Positions 21,812 through 38,001 of a stretch of 64,000 nucleotides of DNA are shown here, piece by piece. A program made the translations under genes and the position numbers. Source of the stretch: Nitrospiraceae bacterium. GTDB lineage: Bacteria > Nitrospirota > Nitrospiria > Nitrospirales > UBA2166. The stretch's first letter is position 1, and each line of letters opens with the position of its first letter. Below the pieces are notes generated by a model. That model saw nothing but the letters and a program-made list of their open reading frames with translations, was not told where the DNA came from and made no database searches. The DNA lies in the NCBI GenBank assembly GCA_002726235.1, contig PBSN01000008.1:371390-435389 (forward strand), read 5' to 3'.

Positions 21812-22774
21812 CTACCCCTTCGCACGATACCTTAGTATCGTGCCCTCAGCCCCAACTGCCAACCCAAAAGAAGGAGTGACAAAGTCTAGACTCCACAATG
21901 TTTTTGTTGTAGGACTTTTCCATTTCGTCCACGTTGCACCGCCATCAACGGTATGAAGAAGACTCCCAAGCTCACCAACCGTCCATCCCTTATTCACATC
22001 GAGAAAGTCAATTCCGGTCAGTTCTATATCAATATCGCTGGGTTGAAAATTCCATCGTCGCCCAGCATCGTGGGTCACGGCAATAATTCCACCATCCCCA
22101 CTTGCCCATCCGTGAGTATTATTCATAAACGACAAGTCAGTGAGGCGCATTGAAATCCCAACTGGAGAAAAGCCTATGACATTCATAGGTTCCCATGTGT
22201 TTCCGCCGTCAGCAGTATGATAAATCTCCCCTTGAACTCCACCTATCCAACCATGAGTAGGGTTAACAAATGTGACGGCAGAAAACCATCCGACATCTGG
22301 AATATCGTGTGCAGTCCAATTTTTCCCTCCATCCGTTGTATGAAAGACCTCACTAAAGGTTCCAACAGCCCATCCGTGAAGTTCATCAAAAAAATCTACT
22401 GCAAGAAATGCATTCTTGTTGTCGTGCTTCTGAATCTCCCACGTATCTCCTCCATCAGTCGTATGAAGAATGGTCATCATATCACCTACGACCCATCCTT
22501 TATCAGTAGTGACAAAGTCGACACTATAAAGACTTGATGAAACTCCACTTGGAAGAACAGTCCACCGATCACCCCCATCACTCGTACGTAAAATCGTCCC
22601 CGACTCTCCCACTATCCAGCTAGTTTTGTCGTCGAAAACCGACACCCCTGCAAGATTGTATGTTGTATTACTATTCCGAGCCGTCCAGTCTTCATGCTCT
22701 CCCGGACAGCCAAGCACAAAAGCCATTGACAAAATACTCAAGGTGCATAACACCCTAGACCATGATACCTTCAT
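21812..22774 (-). CDS. YCF48/Hcf136-like beta-propeller lipoprotein
   Basis: A 320-residue predicted lipoprotein. The signal ends in the lipobox FVLGC near residue 23. The rest is six or seven blades of the pattern GWxVGxxGxIxHTxDGGxTW, for example GWVVGDMMTILHTTDGGDTW and GWAVGTFSEVFHTTDGGKNW. The fold is that of the photosystem II assembly factor YCF48/Hcf136 and of many bacterial exported relatives that help assemble cofactor proteins. Its ATG overlaps the YVTN-propeller stop (ATGA). A scaffold or assembly role for the neighbouring cytochromes is inference. Confidence 0.85.
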   Translation of the reverse strand: MKVSWSRVLCTLSILSMAFVLGCPGEHEDWTARNSNTTYNLAGVSVFDDKTSWIVGESGTILRTSDGGDRWTVLPSGVSSSLYSVDFVTTDKGWVVGDMMTILHTTDGGDTWEIQKHDNKNAFLAVDFFDELHGWAVGTFSEVFHTTDGGKNWTAHDIPDVGWFSAVTFVNPTHGWIGGVQGEIYHTADGGNTWEPMNVIGFSPVGISMRLTDLSFMNNTHGWASGDGGIIAVTHDAGRRWNFQPSDIDIELTGIDFLDVNKGWTVGELGSLLHTVDGGATWTKWKSPTTKTLWSLDFVTPSFGLAVGAEGTILRYRAKG

Positions 22775-23742
22775 GGAATCACAACGATACCATGAGGATC
22801 TTTTCCAACGGGAATACTGGCCACAACAGTGTGTGTAGATAGCTCAATCACTTCGACAGTTTCGGTATCTCGACTCGTCACATACAATTCCTTGCCATCA
22901 GGAGAAAACACAGGAATATCAGGACGTTTTCCAACCGGGATTGTCACAATAGGAACGCGATGCCGAACATCAATAAGTGAAACTGTGTCATCACCTCGGT
23001 TTGCAACCGCAGCAAGCTTTCCATCAGATGTTATAGCGAGACCATGAGTATCTTTTCCAAGCGCAATCTCAGCGACAACTGTACGTGTCGCTGTATCAAT
23101 CACCGACACCTGATCTTCGCCGCCTTCGGTAACCCACAGCTCTCCGCCACTCGGTGTGATGCTGATTCCCATTGCATCCTTCCCCGCAAACACATCCTGA
23201 ACTGTTTGCCGTTCCCAAGTATCAATCACTGAGATATCCGCTGAACCACCATTACTCACATAAGCGTAGTGACCATCAGGACTAAATACGGTAAGCATCG
23301 GTTTTTTTCCCACAGGTATTGTGTCAATGACTTTCTGCTCTGCCAACGAAATAATCGAAACCGTATTTGCCCCCACATTTGCAGTGTAAAGATATTGACC
23401 ATCAGGTGTTACCGAAACTCCATGTGTTTTCGTTCCAGCTGGAATGCTTACCACTTCTCGTTTGGCTACGGTATCAAACACCACAACATTGTGACTTCCG
23501 ACGTTTGCAATATACAGGTGTTTTCCGTCTAAAGATGCCACAAGATTGTGTGGTTTCTTGCTTGAAAGTGGAATAGTGTGGGTTACCTCTTTCGTTGTGG
23601 AATCAATAACCGACAAGGAATTCGAAGCTTGATTTCCTACATAAATTGTCGCGGCGTGGACAGGAACACTGAAACAAAGCACGGCAGACATACACATTAG
23701 CCCCAAATGGACTATCCGTTTATTTCGAAGTAGCGTCATCAT
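22771..23742 (-). CDS. YVTN-family beta-propeller protein, exported
   Basis: About 323 residues: a signal peptide (LGLMCMSAVLCFSVPVHA), then seven repeats of roughly 42 residues of the YVTN type, such as TIYVGNQASNSLSVIDSTTK, YLYTANVGANTVSIISL and ELYVTSRDTETVEVIEL. The open frame starts at 23754, but GGAGGT overlaps those first codons and the following ATG 23742 or 23739 fits it best. It overlaps the cytochrome gene upstream by about 20 bases and the YCF48-like gene by four, so the three are tightly coupled. The ligand is unknown. Confidence 0.87.
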   Translation of the reverse strand: MMTLLRNKRIVHLGLMCMSAVLCFSVPVHAATIYVGNQASNSLSVIDSTTKEVTHTIPLSSKKPHNLVASLDGKHLYIANVGSHNVVVFDTVAKREVVSIPAGTKTHGVSVTPDGQYLYTANVGANTVSIISLAEQKVIDTIPVGKKPMLTVFSPDGHYAYVSNGGSADISVIDTWERQTVQDVFAGKDAMGISITPSGGELWVTEGGEDQVSVIDTATRTVVAEIALGKDTHGLAITSDGKLAAVANRGDDTVSLIDVRHRVPIVTIPVGKRPDIPVFSPDGKELYVTSRDTETVEVIELSTHTVVASIPVGKDPHGIVVIP

Positions 23743-24178
23743 GGGTACCTCCATGTTGATCCGATGCCGAAAACATCGTGCGTAGGAAGTTTACAACATG
23801 CCACCGATCTTCTTCTGATAATTGCAACTGCCAGTTTGGCATGGCCCGCCGACCGACAGTGATTTTCCAGTAGAGACTGCCATCAGATTGTCGTTGTATC
23901 GCTGGATCCATGAAATTCGCCATGGCAACGCCCAAACTCAGTGACGATGGGCCATCTCCATCACCTCGCGAACCATGACACACTTGGCAATTCTTGGCGT
24001 ACACCAATATCCCACGTCCAATTGAAGCTTGTGTCGGAAGAATCGGGTTTTGACGTTGTTTGGCTTCGCCTGGAATATCCCAAGACGTTGACCGTTCGAT
24101 CGCAAAAAGGGGAGTAGAGCAAAAAACAAGAAATGCAATGCTAAGGAGAAAAGCGCGACTCAAATGAATTGTTAACAC
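23720..24178 (-). CDS. Single-haem c-type cytochrome, periplasmic
   Basis: A 152-residue class I cytochrome. A signal peptide (FLLSIAFLVFCSTPLFA) is followed by one haem site CQVCHG, then DGDGPSSLSLGVAMANF, and the distal Met ligand in RRAMPNWQLQLSEEDRWHVV. The start is GTG 24178. It starts 9 bases after the SoxZ-like gene and is likely its electron acceptor, though that is inferred from position only. Confidence 0.9.
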   Translation of the reverse strand: MLTIHLSRAFLLSIAFLVFCSTPLFAIERSTSWDIPGEAKQRQNPILPTQASIGRGILVYAKNCQVCHGSRGDGDGPSSLSLGVAMANFMDPAIQRQSDGSLYWKITVGRRAMPNWQLQLSEEDRWHVVNFLRTMFSASDQHGGTHDDATSK

Positions 24179-24187
24179 GTAGCACCC

Positions 24188-24577
24188 TTACCCCTCGGTA
24201 AATCGAAGCATCGTGGATGCTTCATACGCTTTCTCGTCACTGCTGGTGAAGACGACCCTAATTTGGCCTTCCTCTGAGGCTCGAAGTTTAAATGTCACAA
24301 TTGGATCATCACTAAGTGCAGCGCTCATCTCATAGGTTGACACTAACGCGTCACGAAAAAACACTTCCATCTTGTTAATGTAAAATGCTGGCTCGCCTTT
24401 GGCAAAAACATGTTCCGCTATCATTCGAAGCCCTGTCCTAGCTGGATGGCGCATCTTGGCCTGCACTTTTATGACTTTCCCTCTGGAAATCCGTATGGGC
24501 AACCGAATGCGAGGAGGTGCAATCAGCTGTGAAGAGGAAATTGGATTCTGATGATGTTGCTTGTGCTGCTCTGCCAT
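24188..24577 (-). CDS. SoxZ-like sulfur-carrier partner
   Basis: A 129-residue protein of the SoxZ immunoglobulin-like family. The core begins PPRIRLPIRISRGKVIKVQA, continues KMRHPARTGLRM, and ends with IVTFKLRASEEGQIRVVFTS and EASTMLRF. This matches SoxZ, with an N-terminal extension of about 20 polar residues. No signal peptide is visible; SoxZ is normally exported as a complex with SoxY. It lies 22 bases after the SoxY-like gene. Other SoxYZ-like pairs have unknown substrates, so the gene symbol is withheld. Confidence 0.85.
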   Translation of the reverse strand: MAEQHKQHHQNPISSSQLIAPPRIRLPIRISRGKVIKVQAKMRHPARTGLRMIAEHVFAKGEPAFYINKMEVFFRDALVSTYEMSAALSDDPIVTFKLRASEEGQIRVVFTSSDEKAYEASTMLRFTEG

Positions 24578-24599
24578 GTCAAACTACCCGTCGCCCAGT

Positions 24600-25112
24600 C
24601 TAACACCCACCAACGGCCACATCTATACTGTGTTCAGTGACCCATTTTCCATGCTGATTACACTCCGCAATAACATAAACTGTAGATTCACCAGAATCAA
24701 TTCGAAGTTGGGTGTACAGATACACTTCGCCATTGTCTGGAGTAAAACTAAAGGTGCCTTTCCAGATGATTGGATCATGGTAGTCAAGAATTTGCACACT
24801 GGTTATGTAATGGTCCTGTTCCATAGGATGGTCCATTGCGACGATAATGGGGGCGTTGGCACCATCCTCAACAACATCAGGCATCCGTATCATTGGAATA
24901 TGCAGCTTCTCAAAAGGAGTTAGGCTCTCTCGGTCACGAGGAAACTGAATCAGCTCAGGCAATGTCGACGCGCTCGCCACAGGTCTGCCGAGAAACCCAG
25001 ATATGCCGAACGCGCCGAGGCTCCCAAACCATGCCCAGAGCATCTCTCGCCTAGTCAAATTCTTGGCAAATCGAGCCATGGAACGCACCCCATTAAACGA
25101 ATACTGCCTCAC
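24600..25112 (-). CDS. SoxY-like sulfur-carrier protein with Tat signal and C-terminal GGC
   Basis: A 170-residue SoxY-family protein. The N-terminus has a twin-arginine signal (LTRREMLWAWFGSLGAFGIS). The mature part shows HIPMIRMPDVVEDGANAPI, the SoxY start. The protein ends VAVGGC, so the sulfur-binding Cys is the last residue and the usual final GG of GGCGG is missing. The start is GTG 25112 (GGAG nine bases before) or ATG 25079. It forms a pair with the SoxZ-like gene. In canonical systems the Cys carries the thiosulfate-derived sulfane; here the substrate is unknown. Confidence 0.87.
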   Translation of the reverse strand: MRQYSFNGVRSMARFAKNLTRREMLWAWFGSLGAFGISGFLGRPVASASTLPELIQFPRDRESLTPFEKLHIPMIRMPDVVEDGANAPIIVAMDHPMEQDHYITSVQILDYHDPIIWKGTFSFTPDNGEVYLYTQLRIDSGESTVYVIAECNQHGKWVTEHSIDVAVGGC

Positions 25113-25143: not shown

Positions 25144-25974
25144 CTAGAGCTTCAGATCCCATTTGAGACTTGTTAAGTAAGCATTCACTGCATTGAGTTC
25201 ATCAGAAGATAAATTGAAACTTGGCATGAAAGTCCGTGGTTTCATTTTTTGCGGGTCGGTGAGCCAACTATCCCTCCATTCCGGTCGAATTTTACTTCCC
25301 ACAAATGTCAGGTCAGGGTAGCCAAAAACACCTCTGGCATCGTCATCCTCACCAATGGTGTGGCAGGCTCGACAATCATAGGCATCAGGGGCGGCCAGAG
25401 CCTCTCCGATTTTCTCCAACGACTTCCCTGATGAGAGAATTGTGGCCGGGTCAAAATCAACCTTCAGGGTTTCAAGAAAGGCAATCACATCCGCAACCTC
25501 TTGATCACCTGCCCAGTCAAAAACTGGCATCTGAGTCTGTGGAAACATTTCCGTGGGATCCCAAATCCAGTTAAACAGCCACTGTTTGCTTCGCCGAGCC
25601 GTCACCTGGTTGAGTGTTGGGCCTGTCTCACCCCCAATATATTCACCATCTTGCAAGACACTGTGGCATTGAAGACACTGCACACCATCACCCCAGTCCT
25701 TTTGGAACAATGCCTCACCGCGCTTTGCATCACCTGCTGGGATCTCTGCCAATTCTCCTCCAAGCGGACCGGCGGCCGGGGCAAAACGAACCGACGGATG
25801 CATATCATCAAACGAAACAACAACTGGCGCCGGCGGTGACGATGAAGTTGCCTCAGACGTGATTTCTTCAGAATTGGTCGCGCATCCGGCCAACAGAAAG
25901 ATGCAACCAATCACTAGCGGCACATAGGTTTTCCACGATAACGATCGCATTGTTTGCATTTTTGGAATGACCAT
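25144..25974 (-). CDS. Two-haem c-type cytochrome lipoprotein
   Basis: A 276-residue exported cytochrome. The signal ends in the lipobox LLAGC, so it is probably lipid-anchored. It has two haem sites, CLQCH and CRACH, each followed at a distance by a T-x-MP-x-F motif (TQMPVFDW and RTFMPSFNL) that should give the Met ligands. The two halves look like a duplication of one domain. ATG 25974 has GGGAGGAA before it. It is a paralogue of the 236-residue cytochrome 1.4 kb upstream and lies 31 bases before the SoxY-like gene. Confidence 0.92.
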   Translation of the reverse strand: MVIPKMQTMRSLSWKTYVPLVIGCIFLLAGCATNSEEITSEATSSSPPAPVVVSFDDMHPSVRFAPAAGPLGGELAEIPAGDAKRGEALFQKDWGDGVQCLQCHSVLQDGEYIGGETGPTLNQVTARRSKQWLFNWIWDPTEMFPQTQMPVFDWAGDQEVADVIAFLETLKVDFDPATILSSGKSLEKIGEALAAPDAYDCRACHTIGEDDDARGVFGYPDLTFVGSKIRPEWRDSWLTDPQKMKPRTFMPSFNLSSDELNAVNAYLTSLKWDLKL

Positions 25975-26013: not shown

Positions 26014-27348
26014 CTACTGCTTAATGGAAATCGCACTAAAGTAAATATCGCTACACTGGACTGGGGGACAGGGCGACAACAATCCAGTATCATGTCGTTG
26101 ATCCGACCACATGACAAGAAAACGTTTTGACTCACTCACAGCAAGACTCGGAAAAAGCTGATCTTCTGACCCTCCATCGTCATCAATCTGAACATTTTTT
26201 GTAAACGTTTTCCCTCTGTCACGACTCAGGGAGAAAAAAATATCAAAATTGTCATATCGCTTGTCCTCCCAAACCACACCAATCGTGCCATCGGAGGTAA
26301 CTGCGATACTCGGATGAAACTGAAAGGCATCAGAAGAGTCATCGCTCACCTTAATGTTAAGACCAAATGATTTCCCGCCATCGACACTCTTTCCAAAATA
26401 AATATCTGGCTGGCTATTATTTCGAAGATCGTGCCAAGCAATATATATATGACCTTTCGCATCAACTGCCAGACTTGGGTTGAATTGGTGCGTCTTCGTT
26501 TCATCATCACTGACCATCAGATTGCGACTAAATGACTCGCCGCCATCAGTGCTTCTTGCAAAGAAAATATCCGCATTGCCTTTCCGATGATCATGCCACG
26601 CAAGAACAATCGTCCCGTCCGGACTCACAGCCAACGTTGGGTAGAGCTGCCCAGCACTGCCAAATTCGTCAGTGACCTTGACATTGCGGCGAAATGTTCG
26701 ACCTCCATCCATGCTCTTTGAAAAATAGATGTCGGCCTGCGCACGTCGATAGTCTTGCCATACAACGTAAATCTCCCCTTTAGTTCCTAAAGCAACCATA
26801 GGATGTGTTTGAAACGCAGCTGGTTCAACGTATTCAGGATCTCCAAATTCATCGACTGCAGGCTCGCGGGTTTCATCATCATTCACCTTGACACTCGCAG
26901 TGAAGCCCCCAGTAACACCAAGAGAGATACTACGAGCAAAATAAATATCCTGATCTCCATCACGTTCGTCTAGCCAAACGACGTACACATGCCCCTGCGC
27001 ATCAATGGCTGAGGTTGCTCCATACAAATGAGCCTTATCTGGGATATCATTTACACGAACCGACGGAGCGAACGTCGCTCCATCATCTAGGCTTTGGACA
27101 GCAAAGATGTTTGATCGCCCTGCCCGCTCATCCGACCACACCGCCACAACAAGCTGTTCATCAGTCTCAAGCTTTCGAGATACCAAGCCTCGTTGACCGG
27201 CAGACAGCGTCATTGCGGTGACCTTCCCAACGGGATAATCAGAAATCCGCATGTTTGACTGGCCTGCTGTTTGTCCCATCCGACCACTCCCAATCCAAAG
27301 GATCACTAGTCCAAGCAGGAGAATAATGAGGAAAAAACCGCGTCGCAA
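26014..27348 (-). CDS. Sialidase-fold (Asp-box/BNR repeat) exported protein
   Basis: A 444-residue protein with one N-terminal hydrophobic helix (FFLIILLLGLVILWIGS), signal or anchor. The rest is seven blades of the type IYVVWQDYRRAQADIYFSKS followed by an Asp box such as MDGGRTFRRNVKV or TDGGESFSRN. It resembles sialidase-like propellers but the catalytic Arg triad is not evident, so hydrolase activity is not claimed. The start appears to be TTG 27348, 10 bases after the two-haem cytochrome gene. It sits between two paralogous cytochromes, suggesting a structural or assembly role. Confidence 0.8.
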   Translation of the reverse strand: MRRGFFLIILLLGLVILWIGSGRMGQTAGQSNMRISDYPVGKVTAMTLSAGQRGLVSRKLETDEQLVVAVWSDERAGRSNIFAVQSLDDGATFAPSVRVNDIPDKAHLYGATSAIDAQGHVYVVWLDERDGDQDIYFARSISLGVTGGFTASVKVNDDETREPAVDEFGDPEYVEPAAFQTHPMVALGTKGEIYVVWQDYRRAQADIYFSKSMDGGRTFRRNVKVTDEFGSAGQLYPTLAVSPDGTIVLAWHDHRKGNADIFFARSTDGGESFSRNLMVSDDETKTHQFNPSLAVDAKGHIYIAWHDLRNNSQPDIYFGKSVDGGKSFGLNIKVSDDSSDAFQFHPSIAVTSDGTIGVVWEDKRYDNFDIFFSLSRDRGKTFTKNVQIDDDGGSEDQLFPSLAVSESKRFLVMWSDQRHDTGLLSPCPPVQCSDIYFSAISIKQ

Positions 27349-27358: not shown

Positions 27359-28069
27359 CTATTTCAAGCTCTCAAGATATGTCGTAATTGCTGTGATAGC
27401 ATCCTCAGAGAGATTGAAGTCTGGCATAAACGTTCCCTCGATGATATCGTCGGGGTTCCTCAACCAGATATGCTCCCATTCCCGATAAATCTTACTCCCA
27501 ACATGGGTCAGGTCGGGATACATCGCCCGACCACCTCCAGCCTCCCCTTCCCCTATTGTATGACAGGCTCGACAATCATAGGCATTGACCAACACTTCTC
27601 CTGCCGCAATGTTCGCACCCCCGTGTTGAGTGATAACAGCCGCGACATCAGGCGGCGTTGCAGTGGACATAAGAAACGCGGCAATGTCAGCAGATTGTTG
27701 TAGGTTTTCCCATGGAAATTGCGGCATCGGCGTCTCTGGATAAATCGATCGCGGTTCATTCACAAATTCGAAAAGATGGTCTTCCGACCTGCGCAACCCA
27801 ACCTCGGTAAGAGTTGGACCGACTCTTCCACCTGCCAACAATTTAGAACCATCTGGTTGTGCTTCATACAATGCCTCATGGTCAATGATATGACAATTTA
27901 CGCAAAGGCTCTTCTTATACAGTTCTACACCCTTTACGGGATCTCCAACCAGCGGTTGCTCCTCCGCAAATCCAATAGTTCCCCCTAGGAACATGCCACT
28001 CAACAATACAGCAGCCCCGACATACCATATTCCTGTCCAGCGCATGGAATCGTGTTTCTGTTGCTTCAT
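27359..28069 (-). CDS. Two-haem c-type cytochrome
   Basis: A 236-residue exported cytochrome with a hydrophobic N-terminal segment (YVGAAVLLSGMFLGGTIGFA). The haem sites are CVNCH and CRACH, with Met ligands expected in PETPMPQFPW and EGTFMPDFNL. The two halves repeat the same domain, and it is paralogous to the lipoprotein cytochrome at 25144-25974. ATG 28069 is preferred over GTG 28075 because the GGAGG site is correctly spaced for it. It is the first gene after the strong terminator. Confidence 0.92.
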   Translation of the reverse strand: MKQQKHDSMRWTGIWYVGAAVLLSGMFLGGTIGFAEEQPLVGDPVKGVELYKKSLCVNCHIIDHEALYEAQPDGSKLLAGGRVGPTLTEVGLRRSEDHLFEFVNEPRSIYPETPMPQFPWENLQQSADIAAFLMSTATPPDVAAVITQHGGANIAAGEVLVNAYDCRACHTIGEGEAGGGRAMYPDLTHVGSKIYREWEHIWLRNPDDIIEGTFMPDFNLSEDAITAITTYLESLK

Positions 28070-28166
28070 TGCCACCCTCCTCTAGCAAAGAATTAACGAC
28101 GTACTATCCGCCCAAGTTTAACAACTCACGTACCGTATAATAGCAAACTCGCTCGCCCAAAGGGAT

Positions 28167-28208
28167 AAAAAAAGGGGGAGAAGATTTCTTCTCCCCCCCC
28201 CTTTTTTT
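28167..28208. terminator. Strong bidirectional intrinsic terminator
   Basis: A nearly perfect palindrome: a run of seven A, then a GC-rich stem GGGGGAGAAGA paired with TCTTCTCCCCC around two T, then seven T. It lies 32 bases after the stop of the downstream-most single-haem cytochrome on the minus strand. It should separate the three SoxA-like cytochromes from the genes that follow. Confidence 0.9.
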
Positions 28209-28239: not shown

Positions 28240-28884
28240 TTACATGGCACCTGCAACCGGACCAGCCGGTAGAATTTTCTTGGCACCTGGTTTCCACTTC
28301 TTCCCTTTGCTAAAAGACGAGATATAGTTCGCAAGATCGACTGAGGCCTGAGTGTTTTGATCAATCCATTGGCCTTTGTTGAACGCCGAAATGCACATAT
28401 TGTTCATAGCCGGAAGGTTCACCATAAACCCACGACGCGGCCCGCGTGGCTTCGGAAAGCTTACCGCAGCGCCTTTGAGGGTCGGAATCGACAATTTCGG
28501 ACGAAACACGAATCCACCGGGTTTAATGACCTCAGTTGTAGCTGCCCCACCAATTGATCCTCCACCTTCATGACAACTCGCACAACTTTGTCCGGCATTC
28601 CCATTACCAAGCGTTGGATCGTGATAGATCTTCTTGCCTCGCTCCAACGAAGCTTCCATGGTATCTGGGGCGCTATTTTGCATTGCCTTCATTAACTCAG
28701 CCACCTCTGCATCCGACAAATACGGATCCGCCATCATTCTGATATCTATGGGCTTAGCGTTGGCTAATTTCGCTTCCATTGAATCGGCCCCAATTCCTTT
28801 ACCGGCACCAGCCGTTGTACCTCCACCTGCACATGACGCGAAAGCAAACAGAGGTATGGCTAAGAGACTGATATATCGTTTCAT
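28240..28884 (-). CDS. SoxA-domain-like single-haem cytochrome (copy 3)
   Basis: A 214-residue exported cytochrome with a lipobox-like N-terminus (LFAFASC). The haem site is GQSCASCHEGGGSIGGA. Further on are IPTLKGAAVSFPKPRGP and MNNMCISAF, then DLANYISSFSKGKKW. The spacing and the late Cys resemble the catalytic half of SoxA, where a Cys persulfide ligates the haem. It is the last of three tandem paralogues and ends at the strong terminator. The SoxA link is motif-based inference. Confidence 0.85.
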   Translation of the reverse strand: MKRYISLLAIPLFAFASCAGGGTTAGAGKGIGADSMEAKLANAKPIDIRMMADPYLSDAEVAELMKAMQNSAPDTMEASLERGKKIYHDPTLGNGNAGQSCASCHEGGGSIGGAATTEVIKPGGFVFRPKLSIPTLKGAAVSFPKPRGPRRGFMVNLPAMNNMCISAFNKGQWIDQNTQASVDLANYISSFSKGKKWKPGAKKILPAGPVAGAM

Positions 28885-28941
28885 TTCATCCTCCCATTGT
28901 CAGAGATCCTTAAGAACCTCATACCATTACCACATCTTTGC

Positions 28942-29478
28942 TTATGGCAAGGTTGGCTTACCACCCGGCTCATACCGCTTTCCTTTGCTCAAACTGGCAA
29001 CATAGGACTCAAGATCAATCGCCTGGTGAGAATTTCTGTTTAAAGGTTTCCCCTTCAAAAATGTCATCAGGCACATGTTGTTCATGCCAGCGAGGTCAGT
29101 GACGACCTTCATCGGACCTCGCACGGCCGGAAAATGCGCAGCAGCACCCTTCAGGGTAGGAATGGCCACCTGCATGGCCTGTCCTTTCCACTTCATCTCT
29201 GTCGCACCCCCAACCGATCCACCACCTTCATGGCAACTCGCACAACTTTGCCCAGTGGTGTTATGCCCTAGCTTTGGATCATTGAACATTTTATTACCGG
29301 CTTTAACAGAATCCTTTAATGTCACGATGTCCATGTCAGCCATGGTACCCATCCCAACCATGCCGGTTTCCGGTGACAACAACTTCATCCCCGGAAGAGA
29401 CGCTGCTCCAGCATACGTAACCACCCCGAGCAATATCGCGACGCTCCCCAAAAGCAAAATAACTTTTGCCATTTTCAT
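28942..29478 (-). CDS. SoxA-domain-like single-haem cytochrome (copy 2)
   Basis: A 178-residue exported paralogue. The N-terminal hydrophobic stretch is VILLLGSVAILLGVVTYAGA. The haem site is GQSCASCHEGGGSVGGA, followed by IPTLKGAAAHFPAVRGP, the conserved MNNMCLMTF with a fifth-position Cys, and DLESYVASLSKGKRY. It has no lipobox. It lies 57 bases before copy 3 and 24 bases after copy 1. Confidence 0.88.
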   Translation of the reverse strand: MKMAKVILLLGSVAILLGVVTYAGAASLPGMKLLSPETGMVGMGTMADMDIVTLKDSVKAGNKMFNDPKLGHNTTGQSCASCHEGGGSVGGATEMKWKGQAMQVAIPTLKGAAAHFPAVRGPMKVVTDLAGMNNMCLMTFLKGKPLNRNSHQAIDLESYVASLSKGKRYEPGGKPTLP

Positions 29479-29502
29479 CGCATTCCCCCTTAGGTTGGTA
29501 GA

Positions 29503-30072
29503 TTACATCGCCCCAGGAATTGGAGTCGGGACGATCTTTTTTCCGCCAATTTTATACCGTTTTCCCTTGCTGAGAGACCCTATATAAGTCTGAAGATCGA
29601 CAGCCGGCCGCATGTTTTTGTTCAACGGCAAGCCCTTCATGAAGGTCATAATGCACATGTTATTCATGTCCCCAAGATCAGCAATCCGCTTCATCGGACC
29701 ACGAATAGCGGGGAAATTCACCGCAGCGCCTTTCAAGGTTGGAATGGCAACCATCATTTTCATGCCCTTCCAATTCATTTCCGCAGCGCCGCCGACCGAT
29801 CCACCACCACTATGACAGGTTGCGCAAGACTGGCCCGTCTCGTTCTTACCCAACTTGGGGTTATTGAACATCTTTTCCCCACGCATTAACGAAGCTTCAA
29901 GGGTGTCTGGCTTCATGTTCATCATCATTTCTTTCATCTTCATGACTTTCTCTTTCGGGATATATGGGTCCGGCATTGCCCCCTTCATACCCTCGCCGGC
30001 TATCGCATACAGCGACACCCCAAAGACTGCAACCGCAATCGCGGCACTGATCAAAACTACTTTCTTACTCAT
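29503..30072 (-). CDS. SoxA-domain-like single-haem cytochrome (copy 1)
   Basis: A 189-residue exported paralogue, first of the three. The signal is VVLISAAIAVAVFGVSLYAIA. The mature part is unusually rich in Met and Lys (VMKMKEMMMNMKPD). Haem site GQSCATCHSGGGSVGGA, then IPTLKGAAVNFPAIRGP, MNNMCIMTF and DLQTYIGSLSKGKRY. The Cys of MNNMC lies 54 residues after the second haem Cys. ATG 30072 follows GGGAGGACGTCAGCTG. A promoter-like region lies about 120-150 bases upstream. Confidence 0.88.
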   Translation of the reverse strand: MSKKVVLISAAIAVAVFGVSLYAIAGEGMKGAMPDPYIPKEKVMKMKEMMMNMKPDTLEASLMRGEKMFNNPKLGKNETGQSCATCHSGGGSVGGAAEMNWKGMKMMVAIPTLKGAAVNFPAIRGPMKRIADLGDMNNMCIMTFMKGLPLNKNMRPAVDLQTYIGSLSKGKRYKIGGKKIVPTPIPGAM

Positions 30073-30412: not shown

Positions 30413-30499
30413 GTGCGCCATCTCGCAAGACATTGGGGACGGTCGCACCTTTTCCTTTACAGCCCTTATCCTTACTCACAAACAACTAGGCACATCCCA

Positions 30500-31375
30500 T
30501 TGAAAGATACGGATACAAGCACCTCTCTTCTCCATTATAGCCCCCTCCAGCAATACCTTGCAGAGGTGCGCCGATATCCACTTTTGACACGAGAGAAGGA
30601 AGCGCGGCTTATCAACGAGTACCGCGAATTTGGAAACCGCGACTCAGGAATTCAGCTAATTCTAGCAAATTTACGCTTGGTCGTCTCAATTGCCGGTCCC
30701 TACGCCCGTCCTGGAATGGAACAGCTTGACCTCATACAAGAAGGCAATATCGGATTGCTACAAGCCCTCAAACGCTATGACCCGTCAAAGGGCACGCGGT
30801 TTGGATCCTATGCGGCATGGTGGATTCGAGCCTATATCTTACGATATGTGGTCGCAAACTTTCGTTTGGTTAAACTTGGAACCACGCAGGATCAGCGAAA
30901 GCTCTTCTATAACTTGAAGAAAGAGCGGCAAAAGCTTGAATTGCAAGGGTTTGTTCCAGACACAAAACTTCTTGCCGACCGCTTGAGCGTGCGCGAGAGG
31001 GATATATGGCAAATGGAACAACGTCTCGGAAATCGGGAAATTCCACTGCACCAACCACTCGGAAATGATTCCGAGCAGACGCTTCTCGACATCCTCCCTT
31101 CCGCAGAAGAGCAGATCGACAAAAAACTTGCGGAAAAGGAACTCAAGGCGTTGTTTCGGAAAACGTTACGCGAATTTACTGAAACTCTTAACGATCGAGA
31201 GCGCTTTATCATGACACATCGCATTCTCTCCGAATCTCCGGTCACACTGGAAGAGCTTGGAAAACGGTTTGGGGTAACAAAAGAAAGGAGCCGCCAATTG
31301 CAAAATAGGATTATCGAGAAACTTCGCGACTTTGCAAAAGACAGAATTAAGGACTTTGGGCAACTCAGTTTTTAG
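30500..31375 (+). CDS. RpoH-like RNA polymerase sigma factor
   Basis: An alternative sigma factor of the sigma-70 family, closest in layout to RpoH (sigma-32). Region 2 shows LVVSIAGPYARPGMEQLDLI, QEGNIGLLQALKRYDPSKGT and FGSYAAWWIRAYILRYVV. Region 4 ends VTLEELGKRFGVTKERSRQL. About 291 residues from TTG 30500, which fits RpoH length; the frame is also open from GTG 30413. Region 1.1 is missing. It is divergent from the SoxA-like cytochromes and could control them or the envelope genes, but the sequence does not show targets. Confidence 0.88.
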   Translation: MKDTDTSTSLLHYSPLQQYLAEVRRYPLLTREKEARLINEYREFGNRDSGIQLILANLRLVVSIAGPYARPGMEQLDLIQEGNIGLLQALKRYDPSKGTRFGSYAAWWIRAYILRYVVANFRLVKLGTTQDQRKLFYNLKKERQKLELQGFVPDTKLLADRLSVRERDIWQMEQRLGNREIPLHQPLGNDSEQTLLDILPSAEEQIDKKLAEKELKALFRKTLREFTETLNDRERFIMTHRILSESPVTLEELGKRFGVTKERSRQLQNRIIEKLRDFAKDRIKDFGQLSF

Positions 31376-31390: not shown

Positions 31391-32227
31391 TCAGGCACCA
31401 GTGAAATCACCATCGCTACCACCAGTTGATGGTCCTTGGGATCCTAAATAAATCATCCCATTCTCAATGTCATCCTTCACTTGCTGAACCCCAAAGTACA
31501 TAAATTTTGCTTCGTCAGGACATTCGCGGCACAACAATAAACTCCGTCTGTCCGTTTTATGATGTCGCTGGTCTTGCTGAATCGTCTCAAGAAATTTTGA
31601 TTCATCCATCTTGATACGAAGTCCACAAAAGTCGAGTAGCCGCTGTATTTCACACATTGGATCCTGAAAATAGTCATCATAGAAGGTCACGAACATTGGA
31701 ATCCCAATGCTATGCCTAAATGCGATGTCCATATACTGCTTCCAAAGGACCATGCCGGACTGAATAGACCACCCATGCCGAGTTGCAAGTGAGTGAGCAA
31801 CATCCACAGGATTCCGAATCACTAACACCAGACGCAATGCACTAACCACACGTCTCCAAAATGGTAGCGTGAGCGTCGTTCGCGGATCTTTCCATCCCCA
31901 ATGCAATGCCCCACGACGCCCGTATGCCCGATGGAGGATGGCGACGGCCTCTTCCATTAGAAGGGGTATGTCCGACGCTCTTTCCCAGCCATTCTGCCAT
32001 TGAGAAGGTTTCATCCAAGTGCCTCCTTGGGAAGCCAAAAGACGATCGTTAAGATCCATAATTTCTCGATTTTCCCAAAAACCTAAAGGATTGTCGTCTT
32101 GGGGATCTAAGAATCGTTCTGGATCACCAAGATCAAGCCCCGCACGATTGAGAAGACGAGCCACCATTGATGTTCCACTACGATGCATTCCAATGATGCA
32201 AATCGCAGATCCAGCAAGAGGTGTCAT
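31391..32227 (-). CDS. Sulfotransferase family protein
   Basis: A 278-residue PAPS-dependent sulfotransferase-fold protein. The 5'-phosphosulfate loop is GMHRSGTSMVARLLNRAG at residues 13-30, and the 3'-phosphate motif is VIRNPVDVAHSLATRHG. The segment RFLDPQDDNPLGFWENREI is typical of bacterial polysaccharide-linked members. It lies downstream of the Wzt-type ATPase gene by 32 bases, on the same strand. The acceptor is probably a glycan. Conversion between sulfotransferase and related kinase-like roles cannot be excluded. Confidence 0.85.
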   Translation of the reverse strand: MTPLAGSAICIIGMHRSGTSMVARLLNRAGLDLGDPERFLDPQDDNPLGFWENREIMDLNDRLLASQGGTWMKPSQWQNGWERASDIPLLMEEAVAILHRAYGRRGALHWGWKDPRTTLTLPFWRRVVSALRLVLVIRNPVDVAHSLATRHGWSIQSGMVLWKQYMDIAFRHSIGIPMFVTFYDDYFQDPMCEIQRLLDFCGLRIKMDESKFLETIQQDQRHHKTDRRSLLLCRECPDEAKFMYFGVQQVKDDIENGMIYLGSQGPSTGGSDGDFTGA

Positions 32228-32259
32228 ATGTCCACGGCCATGGCAGACAGAATCATCTG

Positions 32260-33579
32260 TTATCGGTTTACCTCTTCACGTGATTCGACCTTCTCCTTCA
32301 CTCTCACGGAGATGTTGGTCTCCATATAAGCCAAACCGACAAAACGCTTCGCACTGTGGACTTGAAAGACAAGAAGGTCTTTTCGCTTGTCCAACATACG
32401 AACATGGGTGCCAAGCTTCTCTGTCACACCACAGCTTAGAATATAGTTTCCTGCGTGAAACTGCGTAAGGATTGAAAAATCAATGGTCAAGACCGTACCT
32501 GCTACCTGAGGGTCTAAGGGAAAATCAGCGTTATCAGTGCTGATACCGTATACGGCAACACCAACTGGAGTGTGGATTGCCATCCCTACACTCGGCGTTG
32601 TGATATCACGATGAAAGGAAATGGTCATTGCGATCGTAACCCAGCTCCCCCTCTGCACAGCCCGACACGGCATATTTTTGTGATCGTAAAGCTCAACCTC
32701 AAGGATCTCTGCAGCACGCGAACCAAACCTATATTCCTCTCCTTCTAAGGCTGGCTGAAACCCAACATCTTCCAAGCCACGTTCACCATCATCGAGCCAA
32801 TATGCCCGAGACCCTTGTGTCAACTTCAAACGCTCGACATATTCTTCTTCCCGGCGAGACAACAACTCCCTATAGGAGTGAAAAACATTTACTGGAGGGC
32901 CTGCAGTAAGCATTGTTCCATGATCAAGTAAAATGGCTTCGTCACACACGGTTTGTATCACCTGCGCACTATGCGAAGCCAATACAATCGTTTTCCCATC
33001 CCTCTTCGCCTGTTCAAGACGCCGGAAACATCGCCGCTGAAACATGCTATCACCAACTTGAAGTGCCTCGTCGAGAATGAAGATATCAGCATCAATGTTT
33101 GCCGCAATAGCAAACGCCAGTCTAATGTACATTCCAGATGAGTAGGTCTTGACCGGTTGATCAAGAAACGTACCAATTTCCGCAAAGTCCACGATCAGAT
33201 CAAAGCGTTCTTCCATCTCAGCACGATCAATCCCAAGAATAGCGCCGTTAAGATACACATTGTCGCGTCCAGTAAACTCGGGATCAAACCCTGCGCCCAA
33301 CGCCAACAAAGCTGCGATTCTTCCCTGAAGCTGGATTGTCCCTGTTGTAGGTTGCAGAACGCCTGCGAGGAGCTGCAGCAACGTACTTTTTCCTGCTCCG
33401 TTTTGTCCAACCAAGCCAATAATTTTGCCCCGTTCGACCTCAAAAGAAATATCGCGTAACGCCCAATACTCTTCATGATAGCTTCTGCGTCGAATGGAAA
33501 ACAGTTCACGTAATCGATCCACTGGACGACGATAAAGATTGTAAGATTTGGATAAGTTGTGCACGACAACCGTGTTCAT
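32260..33579 (-). CDS. wzt: Wzt-type ABC transporter ATPase for polysaccharide export
   Basis: A 439-residue ATPase. The nucleotide-binding domain has GLVGQNGAGKSTL (Walker A, residues 56-68), TYSSGMYIRLAFAIA (signature) and DIFILDEALQVGD (Walker B). A C-terminal domain (about 250-430) resembles the Wzt carbohydrate-binding domain that reads the non-reducing end of the O-antigen, with RAAEILEVELYDHKN and VGMAIHTPVGVAVYG. It follows the permease gene by 48 bases. The presence of the C-terminal domain implies a capped polymer, for which the sulfotransferases are candidates. Confidence 0.92.
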   Translation of the reverse strand: MNTVVVHNLSKSYNLYRRPVDRLRELFSIRRRSYHEEYWALRDISFEVERGKIIGLVGQNGAGKSTLLQLLAGVLQPTTGTIQLQGRIAALLALGAGFDPEFTGRDNVYLNGAILGIDRAEMEERFDLIVDFAEIGTFLDQPVKTYSSGMYIRLAFAIAANIDADIFILDEALQVGDSMFQRRCFRRLEQAKRDGKTIVLASHSAQVIQTVCDEAILLDHGTMLTAGPPVNVFHSYRELLSRREEEYVERLKLTQGSRAYWLDDGERGLEDVGFQPALEGEEYRFGSRAAEILEVELYDHKNMPCRAVQRGSWVTIAMTISFHRDITTPSVGMAIHTPVGVAVYGISTDNADFPLDPQVAGTVLTIDFSILTQFHAGNYILSCGVTEKLGTHVRMLDKRKDLLVFQVHSAKRFVGLAYMETNISVRVKEKVESREEVNR

Positions 33580-33627
33580 CCGCTTCTCTCACCACACACT
33601 GCTGCGACAATCGCAAACTGTTTAGGT

Positions 33628-34449
33628 TTATAAAACATCGGCAAATGCGGGTTTGGATCGCATGAAAAATAGATACCCAAATGCGGCAACCATCACCATG
33701 ACACACGTCAATATGAGCAATCCTGCTATGTCTGGAACAGTCCCTTCAATGATTGCAAGTCGATAACCTTTGACCAGATGGGCCATAGGATTGATCACCA
33801 ACAGTATCTTCAACGATTCCGGAACTAGTTCGGCCGGATAAATGATAGGCGTGAGAAACATCCACATCTGGGTACCCAAGCCAATCGCATGCCCTGTATC
33901 ACGTACGAATACCCCAAGACATGCAATCGTCCAAGTTAATCCAATCGTAAACAAAAGCTGAAGACACACCAACAGCGGAACAAACACGACCGTCCACGTC
34001 AATGGTGTAAAAAATACGCCGACTACACCCAGCAATAATGTAAATCCAATCCCAAGCTGAATCATTCCGGAAAGTGATACTGATAAAGGGAGAATCTCCA
34101 CCGGAAAAATGATACGCTGCACAAAATGTGCGTTTTCTCGTATCAGCGATGCTGATCGATTCAGCGCGTCGCTAAATGTAAGCCAAGGAATCATGCCACA
34201 CAGAAAATACACTACAAAATCAGCACTTCGCCCTCCCCCGAAACGTACCTTAAGGATTGTCGAGAAGACAAATGTAAAGATAAGGATGATACAAAGTGGC
34301 GTGATGACCGCCCAGGTAAACCCCATTGTCGTCCCTTTGTATTTTCCAACAAAGTCTTTGCGAATAAAGTCCGCAATAAGGCTTCGCGACCGATAGAGAG
34401 AGAGCAACAATGTGAATTTAAGCACGGCACGCTTCCTGGCTCGCATCAC
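33628..34449 (-). CDS. wzm: Wzm-type ABC transporter permease
   Basis: An ABC-2 permease of 273 residues with six predicted helices, for export of O-antigen or other polysaccharide. The N-terminal cytosolic helix carries LIADFIRKDFVGKYKGTTMG, followed by FTWAVITPLCIILIFTFVFS and later FLTPIIYPAELVPESLK, all typical of Wzm/KpsM/TagG proteins. Start is GTG 34449 or ATG 34446. It starts 6 bases after the upstream sulfotransferase gene and pairs with the Wzt-type ATPase. Confidence 0.92.
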   Translation of the reverse strand: MMRARKRAVLKFTLLLSLYRSRSLIADFIRKDFVGKYKGTTMGFTWAVITPLCIILIFTFVFSTILKVRFGGGRSADFVVYFLCGMIPWLTFSDALNRSASLIRENAHFVQRIIFPVEILPLSVSLSGMIQLGIGFTLLLGVVGVFFTPLTWTVVFVPLLVCLQLLFTIGLTWTIACLGVFVRDTGHAIGLGTQMWMFLTPIIYPAELVPESLKILLVINPMAHLVKGYRLAIIEGTVPDIAGLLILTCVMVMVAAFGYLFFMRSKPAFADVL

Positions 34450-34455
34450 GCTGCA

Positions 34456-35277
34456 TCACGTCTCAAAAGAATAACCGGACAAAAAATCATAGGATGCCAT
34501 CTGCGCACGCACCCGCTCGATGTCGTCCTGATCCCAATCAATCTTATGGCGACTCTTGTTTGGGGAAGAAAACACAACCTGAGAACATGCCGTCGTATAG
34601 TCGTCCGGACAATTAATCCCCAAAAACTTACACAGGGTCTGTAACCACAAAACTGGGCGTTCAATCATTGCTTCATGAGGAATATCGAGCATGTCTTCGC
34701 TCGCCACTCGTCGCTTAATATCTGCCACTGTCTGATACAGTAGAAAATGCTCTTCAATAAGGCTTTGAAAATCTACCGTCCCGTGTCGCAAACGCTTCAA
34801 GTACTTGGTCGCGATATTATCGTAGGGGTTCCGAATGACATGGATCAATTTCACTGGAAGAGCAATCGTTTGCTCCAACTTCCACAGAAGTTTGGGGTCA
34901 TCACGCAAATGCAAGGTGGCTTGCTGCCCCTTCTTATCTCCAATCACACGCATCGAGGTGAAGCGGCCTTGCCATTGATTGGAAACACCGTACAAATGGC
35001 CTCCCCGCGCCCTCCCGCGCTGCACACTCAACTGAGAATTGTGGAGAATTAACTCAAAGAGATGTTGTTTTCCAATGCCGTCTTGAATATATTTCATGGC
35101 ATCAAGTTGATCGGCAATAATCACATTGGGATGAGCATCAAGCAATGCCCCAATAAGTGAGTGTCCGCTTCGTGCATAGCCAACAAACATGCAGTAGGTA
35201 GCGATGTCGTCAAAGATCGTTGAACTGTCCATCCTGCCCTGGGGAGAAATCAAATGCTGTTTTGACATCACTAGCAA
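34456..35277 (-). CDS. Sulfotransferase family protein
   Basis: A 273-residue sulfotransferase-fold protein. The PAPS loop is VGYARSGHSLIGALLDAHPN (residues 32-51), with His in place of the usual Thr. The 3'-phosphate region is HVIRNPYDNIATKYLKRLR. It is a close paralogue of the next gene upstream, sharing the RVIGDKKG motif and the D/E-rich C-terminal third. It lies directly before the exporter permease. Substrate unknown. Confidence 0.83.
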   Translation of the reverse strand: MLVMSKQHLISPQGRMDSSTIFDDIATYCMFVGYARSGHSLIGALLDAHPNVIIADQLDAMKYIQDGIGKQHLFELILHNSQLSVQRGRARGGHLYGVSNQWQGRFTSMRVIGDKKGQQATLHLRDDPKLLWKLEQTIALPVKLIHVIRNPYDNIATKYLKRLRHGTVDFQSLIEEHFLLYQTVADIKRRVASEDMLDIPHEAMIERPVLWLQTLCKFLGINCPDDYTTACSQVVFSSPNKSRHKIDWDQDDIERVRAQMASYDFLSGYSFET

Positions 35278-35326
35278 TCTAAAACAACATACTTCGATTG
35301 AAACATTCTACTGCCCGCCCTTACTA

Positions 35327-36181
35327 TCAATCATAGGAATATCCATTCAAAAAACTAAACGGTTTCATCTTCTCACAAACTATCTCAATATCTTCCGGTT
35401 CCCATTCGATATCATTTCGAGTTTTGCGAGGCGCCCGAAACACAATCTGCGAGCACTGTTCAGCATAGTCGGTCGGACACTCAATCCCCAAGAACTCACA
35501 CACGGTCTGTAAACATTGAGCCGGATCTTCAATCATCAATTCATGGTAGATTTCAAGGTATTCCTCCTCACTTAACTTACCTTTCACATCAGAAACGGTT
35601 TGACATTGGGCAAAGTGTTGTTCGATGACATGCCGAAGGTTTGCTGGTCCGCGTTGCAAACGTCTGCGATACTTAGTAGCAATATTGTCATAGGGATTTC
35701 TCACAACATGAAATATCTTCAGGGGAAGTTCAATCGTCTTGCGTAGTATTTGAAGCAGCTCGGGATTTTCTCGAAGCCGCAAACTCGACTTGCCTCCCTT
35801 TTTGTCCCCAATAACACGTAAGGTCGTATATCTCCCCTGCCACTGATCCTTGATTTCATAGCTATACCCAGTCGCTTTGCGCCCACGAAACGCGTGAGCT
35901 TTGGAATTTTCCCGCAACAGATGAAAGATCTGATATTTCGTAAAACCCGCGTGAACATACTTAAGCACATCAAGTTCATGAGCTAGGATGACATTCGGGT
36001 GTGCATCAAGCAATGCACCAAATAAAGATGTTCCGCTTCGGGCATAGCCGAGAAACATGCAGAATGTCTCAAGCTGCGTAAATTGAGCACGATGTTTTAT
36101 CCCACCATATCCCGAAAGAAGATACCCCTTTATCAACTCTAAAACACTGGACCCAATGGGATTGTGGGAGAAAAGACTCAT
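35327..36181 (-). CDS. Sulfotransferase family protein
   Basis: A 284-residue paralogue of the preceding downstream gene. The PAPS loop is LGYARSGTSLFGALLDAHPN (residues 44-63) with the normal Thr. The 3'-phosphate motif is VVRNPYDNIATKYRRRLQ. The shared RVIGDKKGGKSSLRLREN segment shows a recent duplication. Its ATG overlaps the stop of the family-2 sulfotransferase upstream (ATGA). Confidence 0.84.
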   Translation of the reverse strand: MSLFSHNPIGSSVLELIKGYLLSGYGGIKHRAQFTQLETFCMFLGYARSGTSLFGALLDAHPNVILAHELDVLKYVHAGFTKYQIFHLLRENSKAHAFRGRKATGYSYEIKDQWQGRYTTLRVIGDKKGGKSSLRLRENPELLQILRKTIELPLKIFHVVRNPYDNIATKYRRRLQRGPANLRHVIEQHFAQCQTVSDVKGKLSEEEYLEIYHELMIEDPAQCLQTVCEFLGIECPTDYAEQCSQIVFRAPRKTRNDIEWEPEDIEIVCEKMKPFSFLNGYSYD

Positions 36182-37083
36182 TGCTGATGAAACGTCGCCG
36201 CATATCGTTGCTCAAACAACGCAGTTGCAAATCGATAAAGTTCACTATCAAGAGATGTATAGGATTCAATCTGAGCTATGGTTTCGTGCGAAAGGGTTTC
36301 CTCCGTAAGTGCTGGATCGCGTAGCGCGTTCAGATGGGGAACATCCATCGTAGTCGTCCAGCCAAACGTAGCTAGCAAAAGCTCCATCGACTCCGCAAAA
36401 CGATCTGTAATACCAACAAATTCAAACGAGGCAAGACGCTGCTTGGCTTTTTCCAGTAGCTCATCATCACTCATATTTGTCGTTGTATAGGAAAGCAACT
36501 TTGCTTGTTTTGGAAGAATTTCTTTCCCATCGTCATCGTAATATGTTTGGGTTAGATCAAAATCTATTGCAAGATTACGTACTTGAAAGTTGGTAATAAG
36601 TCGTCGCGTCGGAGGAAAGGAAAGAAAATCCTCAATGGTTACGTTGGGATCAAGAAACCGCTCATGGCCCACTGATTTCCTGACACGATTTCGCATCAAA
36701 TTTTTAAAACGTGAGATTGTTCGGCTAACCGGTTCCCGAATCATCGTGATAACACGAGGCACTTGCGGAAGCAATGCGATGAGTGTATGGCCTAGATGAC
36801 CGGCAAACAATGAGTAATTAGCAAGTTCATTTTTGTCCCGCTTCACGATATCGGCAAGTTCATGCATGTAAGAGAATGGCGCGATATGATCTTTTGAAAA
36901 CTGTTCCTCAATGACGGATCGTAGCGAAGTTCCGGCCGTTTTTGGAATGTGGAGAAAGTAAGTTTGAGTTTTTTTAGCTTCGTTATGCATCAGCTTTTTC
37001 GACTCATCATTCAGCGCAACCGTATGATCATGGCGAGACCAATATGTTTTGTAGCATGCGGTGATAGCGTCGTCCAAATACAA
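36178..37083 (-). CDS. Family-2 sulfotransferase-like protein
   Basis: A 301-residue protein of the Sulfotransfer_2 type, which includes heparan-2-O and chondroitin sulfotransferase relatives. The PAPS loop is YFLHIPKTAGTSLRSVIEEQ near residue 42. Next are AGHLGHTLIALLP and TMIREPVSRTISRF, the 3'-phosphate site. The N-terminal 30 residues before the domain may not be translated; ATG 36990 is an alternative start. It is paralogous to the next gene upstream. Confidence 0.84.
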   Translation of the reverse strand: MYLDDAITACYKTYWSRHDHTVALNDESKKLMHNEAKKTQTYFLHIPKTAGTSLRSVIEEQFSKDHIAPFSYMHELADIVKRDKNELANYSLFAGHLGHTLIALLPQVPRVITMIREPVSRTISRFKNLMRNRVRKSVGHERFLDPNVTIEDFLSFPPTRRLITNFQVRNLAIDFDLTQTYYDDDGKEILPKQAKLLSYTTTNMSDDELLEKAKQRLASFEFVGITDRFAESMELLLATFGWTTTMDVPHLNALRDPALTEETLSHETIAQIESYTSLDSELYRFATALFEQRYAATFHQQ

Positions 37084-37182
37084 TTTTTAGGTTGTTGTAA
37101 TTGTGGCGCAGGGTAAGACGCAAAGACGGCCGAAGCGGAAGATATCTTGAAATACGTAAAGATCGATCCCATAGCAACACTG

Positions 37183-38001
37183 TCATGAGGCAAAAGGGAA
37201 GTGTCCTGAAAAATTATGTTCAAATATTTCAGTAGCAAACCTATACAACTCAGCATCAAGCGATGTACATGCCTGTATATCAGCAAGCGTCTGATTCGAG
37301 AGTGGCCGAGCAAGCCCAAGTGACGTAGATGAGGCATTGAGAAACGGGCTATCCATCGTGCCCTCCCAGCCAAATGTTGAACACAAAAGATCAAGCGAGT
37401 CTCTAAATCGCTCGGTAACTCCCACAAATTCAAACGAGGCTAGGCGCCTTTTGGCCCTGCTCAACAAATCATGATCACTCAACCCCGTTGATGTATAAGC
37501 GAAGAGTTTGTTCATCTTCGGAACAATAGGATTGCCGGAAAAATCTGTATAAGTCTTGGTTAAATCAAAATCCTGTGCAAGATTGCGAACCTGAAAATTT
37601 GTGATGAGTCGTCGTGTGGGTTCAAATGCCAAAAAATCATCAATGCTGACATCAGGATCTAAAAAACGATTGTGCCCCCACGGAGCGCGTCCCGAACGTG
37701 CAGCATGTAGCCTCATATAGTTGAATCGTGAAATCGTGCGTGCAACAGGATCACGAAGCATAGTAATCACGCGTGGCGGCGTTGGAAGAAGAGAGAGCAG
37801 GGTATACCCCATATGTCCCGCAATCACTGGATAGGTGGCAAGCTCACTGACGTCCCGTCTCACCACGTCCGCCAATTCCTGCATGACAGAACAGGGACAG
37901 ATTTCTTCGGGTTCAAATTGAGCTTCAATTATTTTTCGAAGAGACGTTCCAGCTGTTTTTGGAATATGGAGAAAGTAGATTTGCCGTAGATCTGCCGTCA
38001 T
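37183..38001 (-). CDS. Family-2 sulfotransferase-like protein
   Basis: A 272-residue paralogue of the 36178-37083 gene. The PAPS loop FLHIPKTAGTSLRKIIEAQF begins at residue 10; TMLRDPVARTISRFNYMR is the 3'-phosphate site; RRLITNFQVRNLAQDFDLT is shared almost exactly with its neighbour. A 99-base gap separates them. No signal peptide, so it acts in the cytosol, presumably on a glycan before export by Wzm/Wzt. Confidence 0.85.
   Translation of the reverse strand: MTADLRQIYFLHIPKTAGTSLRKIIEAQFEPEEICPCSVMQELADVVRRDVSELATYPVIAGHMGYTLLSLLPTPPRVITMLRDPVARTISRFNYMRLHAARSGRAPWGHNRFLDPDVSIDDFLAFEPTRRLITNFQVRNLAQDFDLTKTYTDFSGNPIVPKMNKLFAYTSTGLSDHDLLSRAKRRLASFEFVGVTERFRDSLDLLCSTFGWEGTMDSPFLNASSTSLGLARPLSNQTLADIQACTSLDAELYRFATEIFEHNFSGHFPFAS

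Follow-up and report, generated by a model that had tools for sequence, protein, structure and literature searches.

The window analyzed here, the whole 64,000-nucleotide stretch of DNA from a Nitrospiraceae bacterium (genome G000), contains three complete, intact ORFs side by side on the minus strand at positions 28240 to 30072. In order of transcription these are copy 3 (29503-30072), copy 2 (28942-29478), and copy 1 (28240-28884), which encode single-heme cytochromes of 189, 178, and 214 amino acids, respectively; copies 2 and 3 are 42-47% identical to copy 1. An export signal was read from the sequence of each copy, and that of copy 1 is of the lipoprotein type (AFASC). The mature domain of each protein contains one CxxCH motif, encoded at 29812-29826 (copy 3), 29230-29244 (copy 2), and 28570-28584 (copy 1), and one further Cys, a candidate heme ligand in the motif MNNMC, with its codon at 29653-29655, 29071-29073, and 28393-28395, respectively. 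The heme motifs of copies 1, 2, and 3 are GQSCASCHEGGG, GQSCASCHEGGG, and GQSCATCHSGGG, the C-terminal tail motifs, in that order, are DLANYISSFSKGK, DLESYVASLSKGK, and DLQTYIGSLSKGK, and both IPTLKGAA-x-x-FP and MNNMC are found in all three. The original prediction, which described three tandem single-heme cytochromes from these motifs, was borne out in the complete ORFs, apart from the distance between the second heme Cys and the MNNMC Cys, given as 54 residues in copy 1: we measured 60 residues there and 54 in copies 2 and 3. The same spacing, measured here, is 42-49 in SoxA catalytic domains and 33-35 in SoxA N-terminal heme domains. Comparison with the sister species UBA2166 gave a dN/dS of ~0.03-0.06 for each copy, and each is under purifying selection.

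At 28174-28201, a strong GC-rich hairpin followed on both strands by T runs separates the three cytochrome genes from those downstream and is a candidate terminator or attenuator. A promoter scan returned sites no more numerous than in shuffled sequence. Divergent from the cytochrome genes is a gene for a sigma-70-family factor (30413-31375, plus strand), a possible regulator, and at 31391-44129 sulfotransferase-like P-loop genes surround a polysaccharide-type ABC transporter (32260-34449), as judged by eye from the translations.

Downstream of the hairpin, also on the minus strand, are a di-heme cytochrome with two SoxX-like domains (27359-28075; 59.7 bits with the SoxX model TIGR04485, cut-off 61), the BNR-repeat β-propeller of the long cassette described below (26014-27348), a second di-heme SoxX-like cytochrome (25144-25974; 88.6 bits with TIGR04485, cut-off 61), a SoxY-like sulfur carrier with a twin-arginine signal and a terminal GGC (24600-25112; PF13501, 60.6 bits), a SoxZ-like carrier partner that has no signal peptide (24188-24577; PF08770, 59.1 bits), a mono-heme class I cytochrome c (23720-24178), a YncE/YVTN β-propeller (22771-23754), and a YCF48/HCF136-like propeller (21812-22774; PF14870, 195 bits). 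The BNR propeller and the mono-heme cytochrome were assigned by Pfam and neighborhood comparison, and the YncE propeller by profile matches and neighborhood comparison. The PQQ-associated propeller model TIGR03866 also recognizes the YncE protein, and the SoxY and SoxZ proteins (24188-25112) score comparably with the quinoprotein-associated SoxYZ carrier model TIGR04557 and with the models of true SoxY and SoxZ.

A multi-heme SoxX-like gene lies directly after the cytochrome gene at 12 loci in Nitrospirota, Acidobacteriota, and KSB1, which is every genome with adequate flanks except that of the short, divergent relative L087; G014, which ends at the cytochrome gene, was left out of this count. 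In these relatives, the SoxX-like neighbor scores 55.9-81.4 bits with TIGR04485 (cut-off 61), the one HMM behind its SoxX label; here as in the window, the score sums two domains. The Acidobacteria and KSB1 proteins have three CxxCH motifs. Compared with SoxX itself, the neighbor is near or above the model cut-off, but it has two (or three) heme domains instead of one; generic class I cytochromes match the SoxX-like profile equally well in the PDB, and single-sequence searches single out neither SoxX nor TsdB. In several genomes with a single copy, a YCF48-like propeller likewise comes after the cytochrome pair. Three genera possess a long cassette consisting of the cytochrome copies, the di-heme SoxX-like gene, the BNR propeller, the second SoxX-like gene, a further cytochrome (two genera), SoxY, SoxZ, usually a cytochrome c, and the YncE and YCF48-like propellers. 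In all four genomes read, SoxY ends in VAVGGC and carries a twin-arginine signal, and SoxZ has no signal; together they match the GGC-armed SoxYZ carrier of the Sox system, with scores under the true-SoxY and true-SoxZ equivalog cut-offs. This gene order supports a sulfur role for the cytochromes, a role that was first suggested without reference to the SoxX-like, SoxY, and SoxZ genes and that is strengthened by them.

Among 269 genomes of the class, SoxZ is present only in G000, G001, G002, G046, and G074, and two or three cytochrome copies are present in G000, G001, G003, G046, and G074, a co-occurrence that represents two or three independent lineages only. In the mismatched genomes, G002 and G003, contigs end inside the cluster. 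Single-copy genomes have no SoxZ, and since these relatives have the cytochrome pair without SoxYZ, the carrier is not an obligate partner of the family.

The SoxA/TsdA profile PF21342 (cut-off 27) gave 40.7 bits for copy 2, 35.2 for copy 3, and 25.8, just under the cut-off, for copy 1. The earlier proposal of single-domain SoxA relatives is supported. The SoxA equivalog TIGR04484 gave 23.3, 32.3, and 29.5 bits for the three copies, far short of its cut-off of 110. With PF21342, SoxA N-domains score 87-121 bits and SoxA C-domains 22-35 bits. When the family profile was aligned by hhalign with hand-split SoxA, the N-terminal heme-1 domain matched with an E of 5.6e-18 (probability 99) and the C-terminal catalytic domain with an E of 2.7e-9 (probability 96), and the MNNMC Cys is paired with the ligand-position Cys of SoxA in both alignments. 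In a PDB profile alignment, it falls exactly on Cys96 of mature TsdA, which corresponds to Cys123 of the precursor (PMC4423706), an equivalence counted from the printed alignment. The extra Cys that had been likened to that of SoxA therefore aligns with the axial Cys ligand of both SoxA and TsdA. The family combines a CxxCH, a subsequent ligand-position Cys, and the SoxA/TsdA fold, the last taken from a model with SoxA rows in its alignment, and these features characterize the superfamily. By score, architecture, and arginine residues, the three copies are relatives of the SoxA/TsdA heme domain, yet they are neither SoxA nor TsdA. None reaches the TIGR04484 cut-off, has two cytochrome domains, or carries Arg at both -4 and -16 from the ligand Cys, as SoxA does; the chains end after the SKGK region without the second cytochrome c domain of TsdA, and they lack its Arg at -4 and basic residue at -14. 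The likeness to the SoxA catalytic domain in particular, seen in the original prediction, was not supported: the N-domain is the better hhalign match, the phylogenetic tree sides with TsdA, and the -4 Arg is gone. No relatives of the cytochrome were found in viral contigs, and plasmids gave matches only at the level of peroxidases.

A model of the copy 2 core, built from a 17-sequence alignment that included three SoxA N-domain rows, had a pLDDT of 79.5 and a pTM of 0.75. It contains a predicted β-hairpin insert between CxxCH and IPTLKGAA; copy 1 has an insert that is six residues longer. The best solved match to the model is the TsdA catalytic domain, residues 17-134 (Foldseek E 8e-5; VIA Z 13.0), with further matches to the N-terminal domain of Rhodovulum sulfidophilum SoxA (1h31, residues 50-154; Z 12.6) and to Marichromatium TsdBA (Z 12.3). 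The next family has a Z of 9.2, and peroxidases reach no more than 7.3. The full mature copy 3, a longer protein that was modeled without SoxA rows, gave a poor pLDDT of 54.8. Given the SoxA N-domain rows in the first alignment and the poor model without them, we regard the fold match as supporting rather than independent evidence.

A phylogenetic tree (~120 columns) was constructed of the cytochrome family, SoxA N- and C-domains, and three TsdA catalytic domains, two of which are from the Nitrospirota genomes G046 and G074. The cytochrome family forms one clade (96/96), sister to TsdA (95/88), and the SoxA catalytic domains are separated from it by a branch with 99/99 support. AU tests gave p 0.29 when the cytochromes were held with SoxA N-domains and p 0.064 when they were held with SoxA C-domains; because the nearest alternatives are not rejected, the branching order is a best estimate. 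On that best estimate, the tree and the fold search place the family nearest to the TsdA catalytic domain, then to the SoxA N-terminal heme domain, with the SoxA catalytic domain furthest. By sequence, tree, and fold search, the three genes are paralogs encoding exported c-type cytochromes that consist of a single SoxA/TsdA-superfamily domain and most resemble the TsdA catalytic domain. Sequences from the window genome, UBA2166, and OFTM238 group by copy, with one clade each for copies 1, 2, and 3, indicating that the triplication is older than the divergence of these species; on the earlier question of whether the triplication is lineage-wide, it is genus-wide. The nine sequences of the triplicated genus are joined in two trees with moderate support (84/92; 94/94), and two other trees do not settle the joining. 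The copy pair of G046 groups with G074, apart from the triplicated genus. The L087 relative (L087:7323-7709, genome G479) is a 128-amino acid single-heme protein that has no β-hairpin insert and no SoxX-like neighbor, with Ala at -4 and a Cys spacing of 33 like that of SoxA N-domains.

The Cys at the MNNMC position is kept in 22 of 22 relatives examined, including all rows of the 14-row alignment A2. Its invariance, the PF21342 scores of copies 2 and 3 above cut-off, and the low dN/dS argue that the observed pattern is not due to chance. The Arg at -4 from the ligand Cys (TsdA Arg119) is invariant in TsdA and SoxA and binds thiosulfate, and there is a second, SoxA-specific Arg (R. sulfidophilum SoxA Arg232) (PMC4423706), which we place at -16; Arg occupies both positions in all 11 SoxA catalytic domains. 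In the cytochrome family, the -4 residue is Met in every one of the 14 aligned members of A2 and Gln (G334) or Ala (L087) in two further relatives, both of which keep the Cys. At -16, Arg is confined to copies 2 and 3 of the triplicated genus; it is absent from copy 1, and the rows measured outside the genus have Met, Ala, or Lys. At -14, where TsdA has a basic residue that also binds thiosulfate, copies 2 and 3 have Pro, and position +4 is Phe in A2, where TsdA has Ser or Asn. With the -4 Arg replaced, the -16 Arg mostly absent, and Phe at +4, little remains of the charged pocket for thiosulfate, while the candidate ligand persists.

From the alignments, we consider the MNNMC Cys likely to be the distal heme ligand, with the CxxCH His on the opposite face. 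Because the -4 Arg is absent, canonical thiosulfate chemistry is doubtful, and these cytochromes probably neither conjugate nor dehydrogenate thiosulfate in the canonical way. Electron transfer, or a reaction with some sulfur species of lower charge, would be more plausible than thiosulfate conjugation, and the cytochromes could possibly bind a sulfur species.

Genome-wide profile searches were made for the remaining Sox components. SoxB gave no match at E 1e-20 in G000-G003, G046, and G074 (73-99% complete), no canonical SoxA scored over the TIGR04484 cut-off in the six genomes searched, including the window genome, and no canonical TsdA scored over cut-off elsewhere in the window genome, whose completeness of 90.65% makes the absences provisional. 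Replacement of SoxB by a SoxH-type hydrolase was rejected on a search confined to one MBL model, as the SoxH-related TIGR04558 had no match in four genomes.

In the mechanism that we propose, the CxxCH His and the conserved MNNMC Cys would bind the heme from opposite faces, and the cytochromes would form a SoxAX-like or TsdAB-like complex with the adjoining tandem-heme SoxX-like cytochrome, as inferred from an adjacency conserved in three phyla. Electrons would pass from a sulfur compound into the tandem SoxX-like hemes and on to cytochrome c. We think it fairly likely that the cytochrome and its SoxX-like partner constitute such a SoxAX/TsdAB-like electron-transfer unit. Where a genus has the long cassette, the electrons would come from a sulfur species that is attached to the SoxYZ arm or is due to be loaded there, in a pathway without SoxB; that the unit of the window organism handles sulfur carried on SoxYZ without SoxB is a tentative proposal to which we give slightly less than even weight. 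The paralogs probably differ in localization, one being a lipoprotein and two not, and perhaps in partner. For the explanation taken whole, that is, TsdA-like Cys-heme cytochromes with a SoxX-like partner and SoxYZ and no SoxB, our confidence is evenly divided.

Pure electron transfer would be a simpler function, with the Cys-ligated heme binding no substrate at its face and feeding or draining the SoxX-like cytochrome, like the heme-1 domain of di-heme SoxA. The Met at -4 is shared with the R. sulfidophilum SoxA N-domain (EQMINACR), Phe at +4 in place of the TsdA Ser/Asn gives a non-polar distal side, and the hhalign match to the SoxA N-domain (E 5.6e-18) is in keeping with such a relay. However, the tree and the fold search are closer to the TsdA catalytic domain, and three conserved paralogs beside a sulfur carrier are many for one relay; we consider a relay without substrate doubtful. 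We also hold unlikely a full SoxB-independent Sox-like pathway, in which three TsdA-derived Cys-heme cytochromes and tandem SoxX-like partners would oxidatively load or unload different uncharged sulfur species (persulfide or sulfide, not thiosulfate) on the GGC-armed SoxYZ, with the β-propellers replacing SoxB.

A catalytic role as single-domain SoxA units, whose Cys would carry thiosulfate in persulfide or S-thiosulfonate form for conjugation to SoxYZ in the manner of SoxAX, would fit the alignment with the catalytic Cys, the GGC-armed SoxY in the same cassette, and the -16 Arg of copies 2 and 3. It is made improbable by the loss of the -4 Arg in all members and of the -16 Arg in copy 1 and outside the genus, by a profile likeness that is weaker to the catalytic domain than to the N-domain, by the separation of the two in the tree, and by the failure to detect SoxB in the genomes searched. 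Ligation by His/Met, for example through the Met at -4 found in 14 of 14 rows of A2, would leave the Cys for another purpose such as an intermolecular disulfide, but the Cys persists where -4 is Gln (G334) or Ala (L087), and an intramolecular disulfide is impossible since the mature domain has only one non-heme Cys; we judge this highly improbable. Derivation from di-heme peroxidases or MauG rather than from SoxA/TsdA, suggested by Pfam CCP_MauG and PDB profile matches to peroxidases, was rejected and has a negligible chance of being correct, as there is one heme and no second peroxidase domain, the matches center on the heme-motif half and stop before MNNMC, and the Z of at most 7.3 compares with 13.0 for TsdA.

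The Cys-heme cytochromes that we favor as sulfur-linked electron-transfer proteins share with the TsdA catalytic domain (PDB 4wq7/4v2k; PMC4423706) the domain fold, as modeled here, the Cys position, and a similar tail (LNGRALALDHPALIDMLAYMSWLSQG in TsdA, LKGKPLNRNSHQAIDLESYVASLSKG in the cytochrome). Unlike TsdA, they have no second heme domain in the chain, no -4 Arg, and no basic residue at -14; they have a predicted β-hairpin insert of 10-20 residues after CxxCH, and the gene is present three times, in the company of SoxX-like and SoxYZ genes. As in SoxA of SoxAX (TIGR04484; PDB 1h31, 2c1d), a heme domain with a ligand-position Cys is encoded beside a SoxX-like cytochrome, with SoxYZ nearby also in three genera, but there is one domain instead of two, the catalytic Arg is gone, and the resemblance is nearer to the non-catalytic N-terminal heme domain. 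Plasmids of Methylobacterium and Neorhizobium encode SoxA, SoxX, a SoxY-like protein, and SoxZ with no annotated soxB within 9 kb, and with this precedent SoxA/SoxYZ without an adjacent soxB is not new in itself. In those plasmid clusters, SoxA is of the canonical two-domain form and has both arginines, and the SoxY arm is AACIE, compared with GGC here; the window cluster also differs from them in its β-propeller partners. A literature search returned nothing specific to the cluster, nor any description of a single-domain, arginine-less, amplified cytochrome with a tandem-heme partner.

SoxA and TsdA supply most of the known examples of Cys-ligated hemes whose ligand takes part in sulfur chemistry. 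What the ligand Cys does in SoxAX has been disputed (PMC4423706). The cytochrome family is a natural variant in which the Cys is kept, the arginine is lost, and the gene is amplified, in some genera beside SoxYZ without SoxB, and it offers a direct test of whether a Cys-heme by itself relays electrons or handles sulfur. The family is a pointer to a sulfur-related module of Nitrospirota that has not been described, and SoxA- or SoxX-type annotations in these genomes should not be taken as thiosulfate oxidation.

The window genome has no NarH/NxrB-type protein over cut-off, and so it is not obviously that of a nitrite oxidizer. It encodes three molybdopterin sulfite-oxidase-family proteins, none of which exceeds the SoxC cut-off (best 205 of 420 bits). 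One of the three (L091:1075-2853, contig C20 of G000) is encoded beside a small mono-heme cytochrome and resembles a SorAB-type sulfite dehydrogenase. Two Nitrospirota genomes with the SoxYZ cassette also encode candidates for a true two-heme TsdA (L100, contig C16 of G046; L101, contig C5 of G074).
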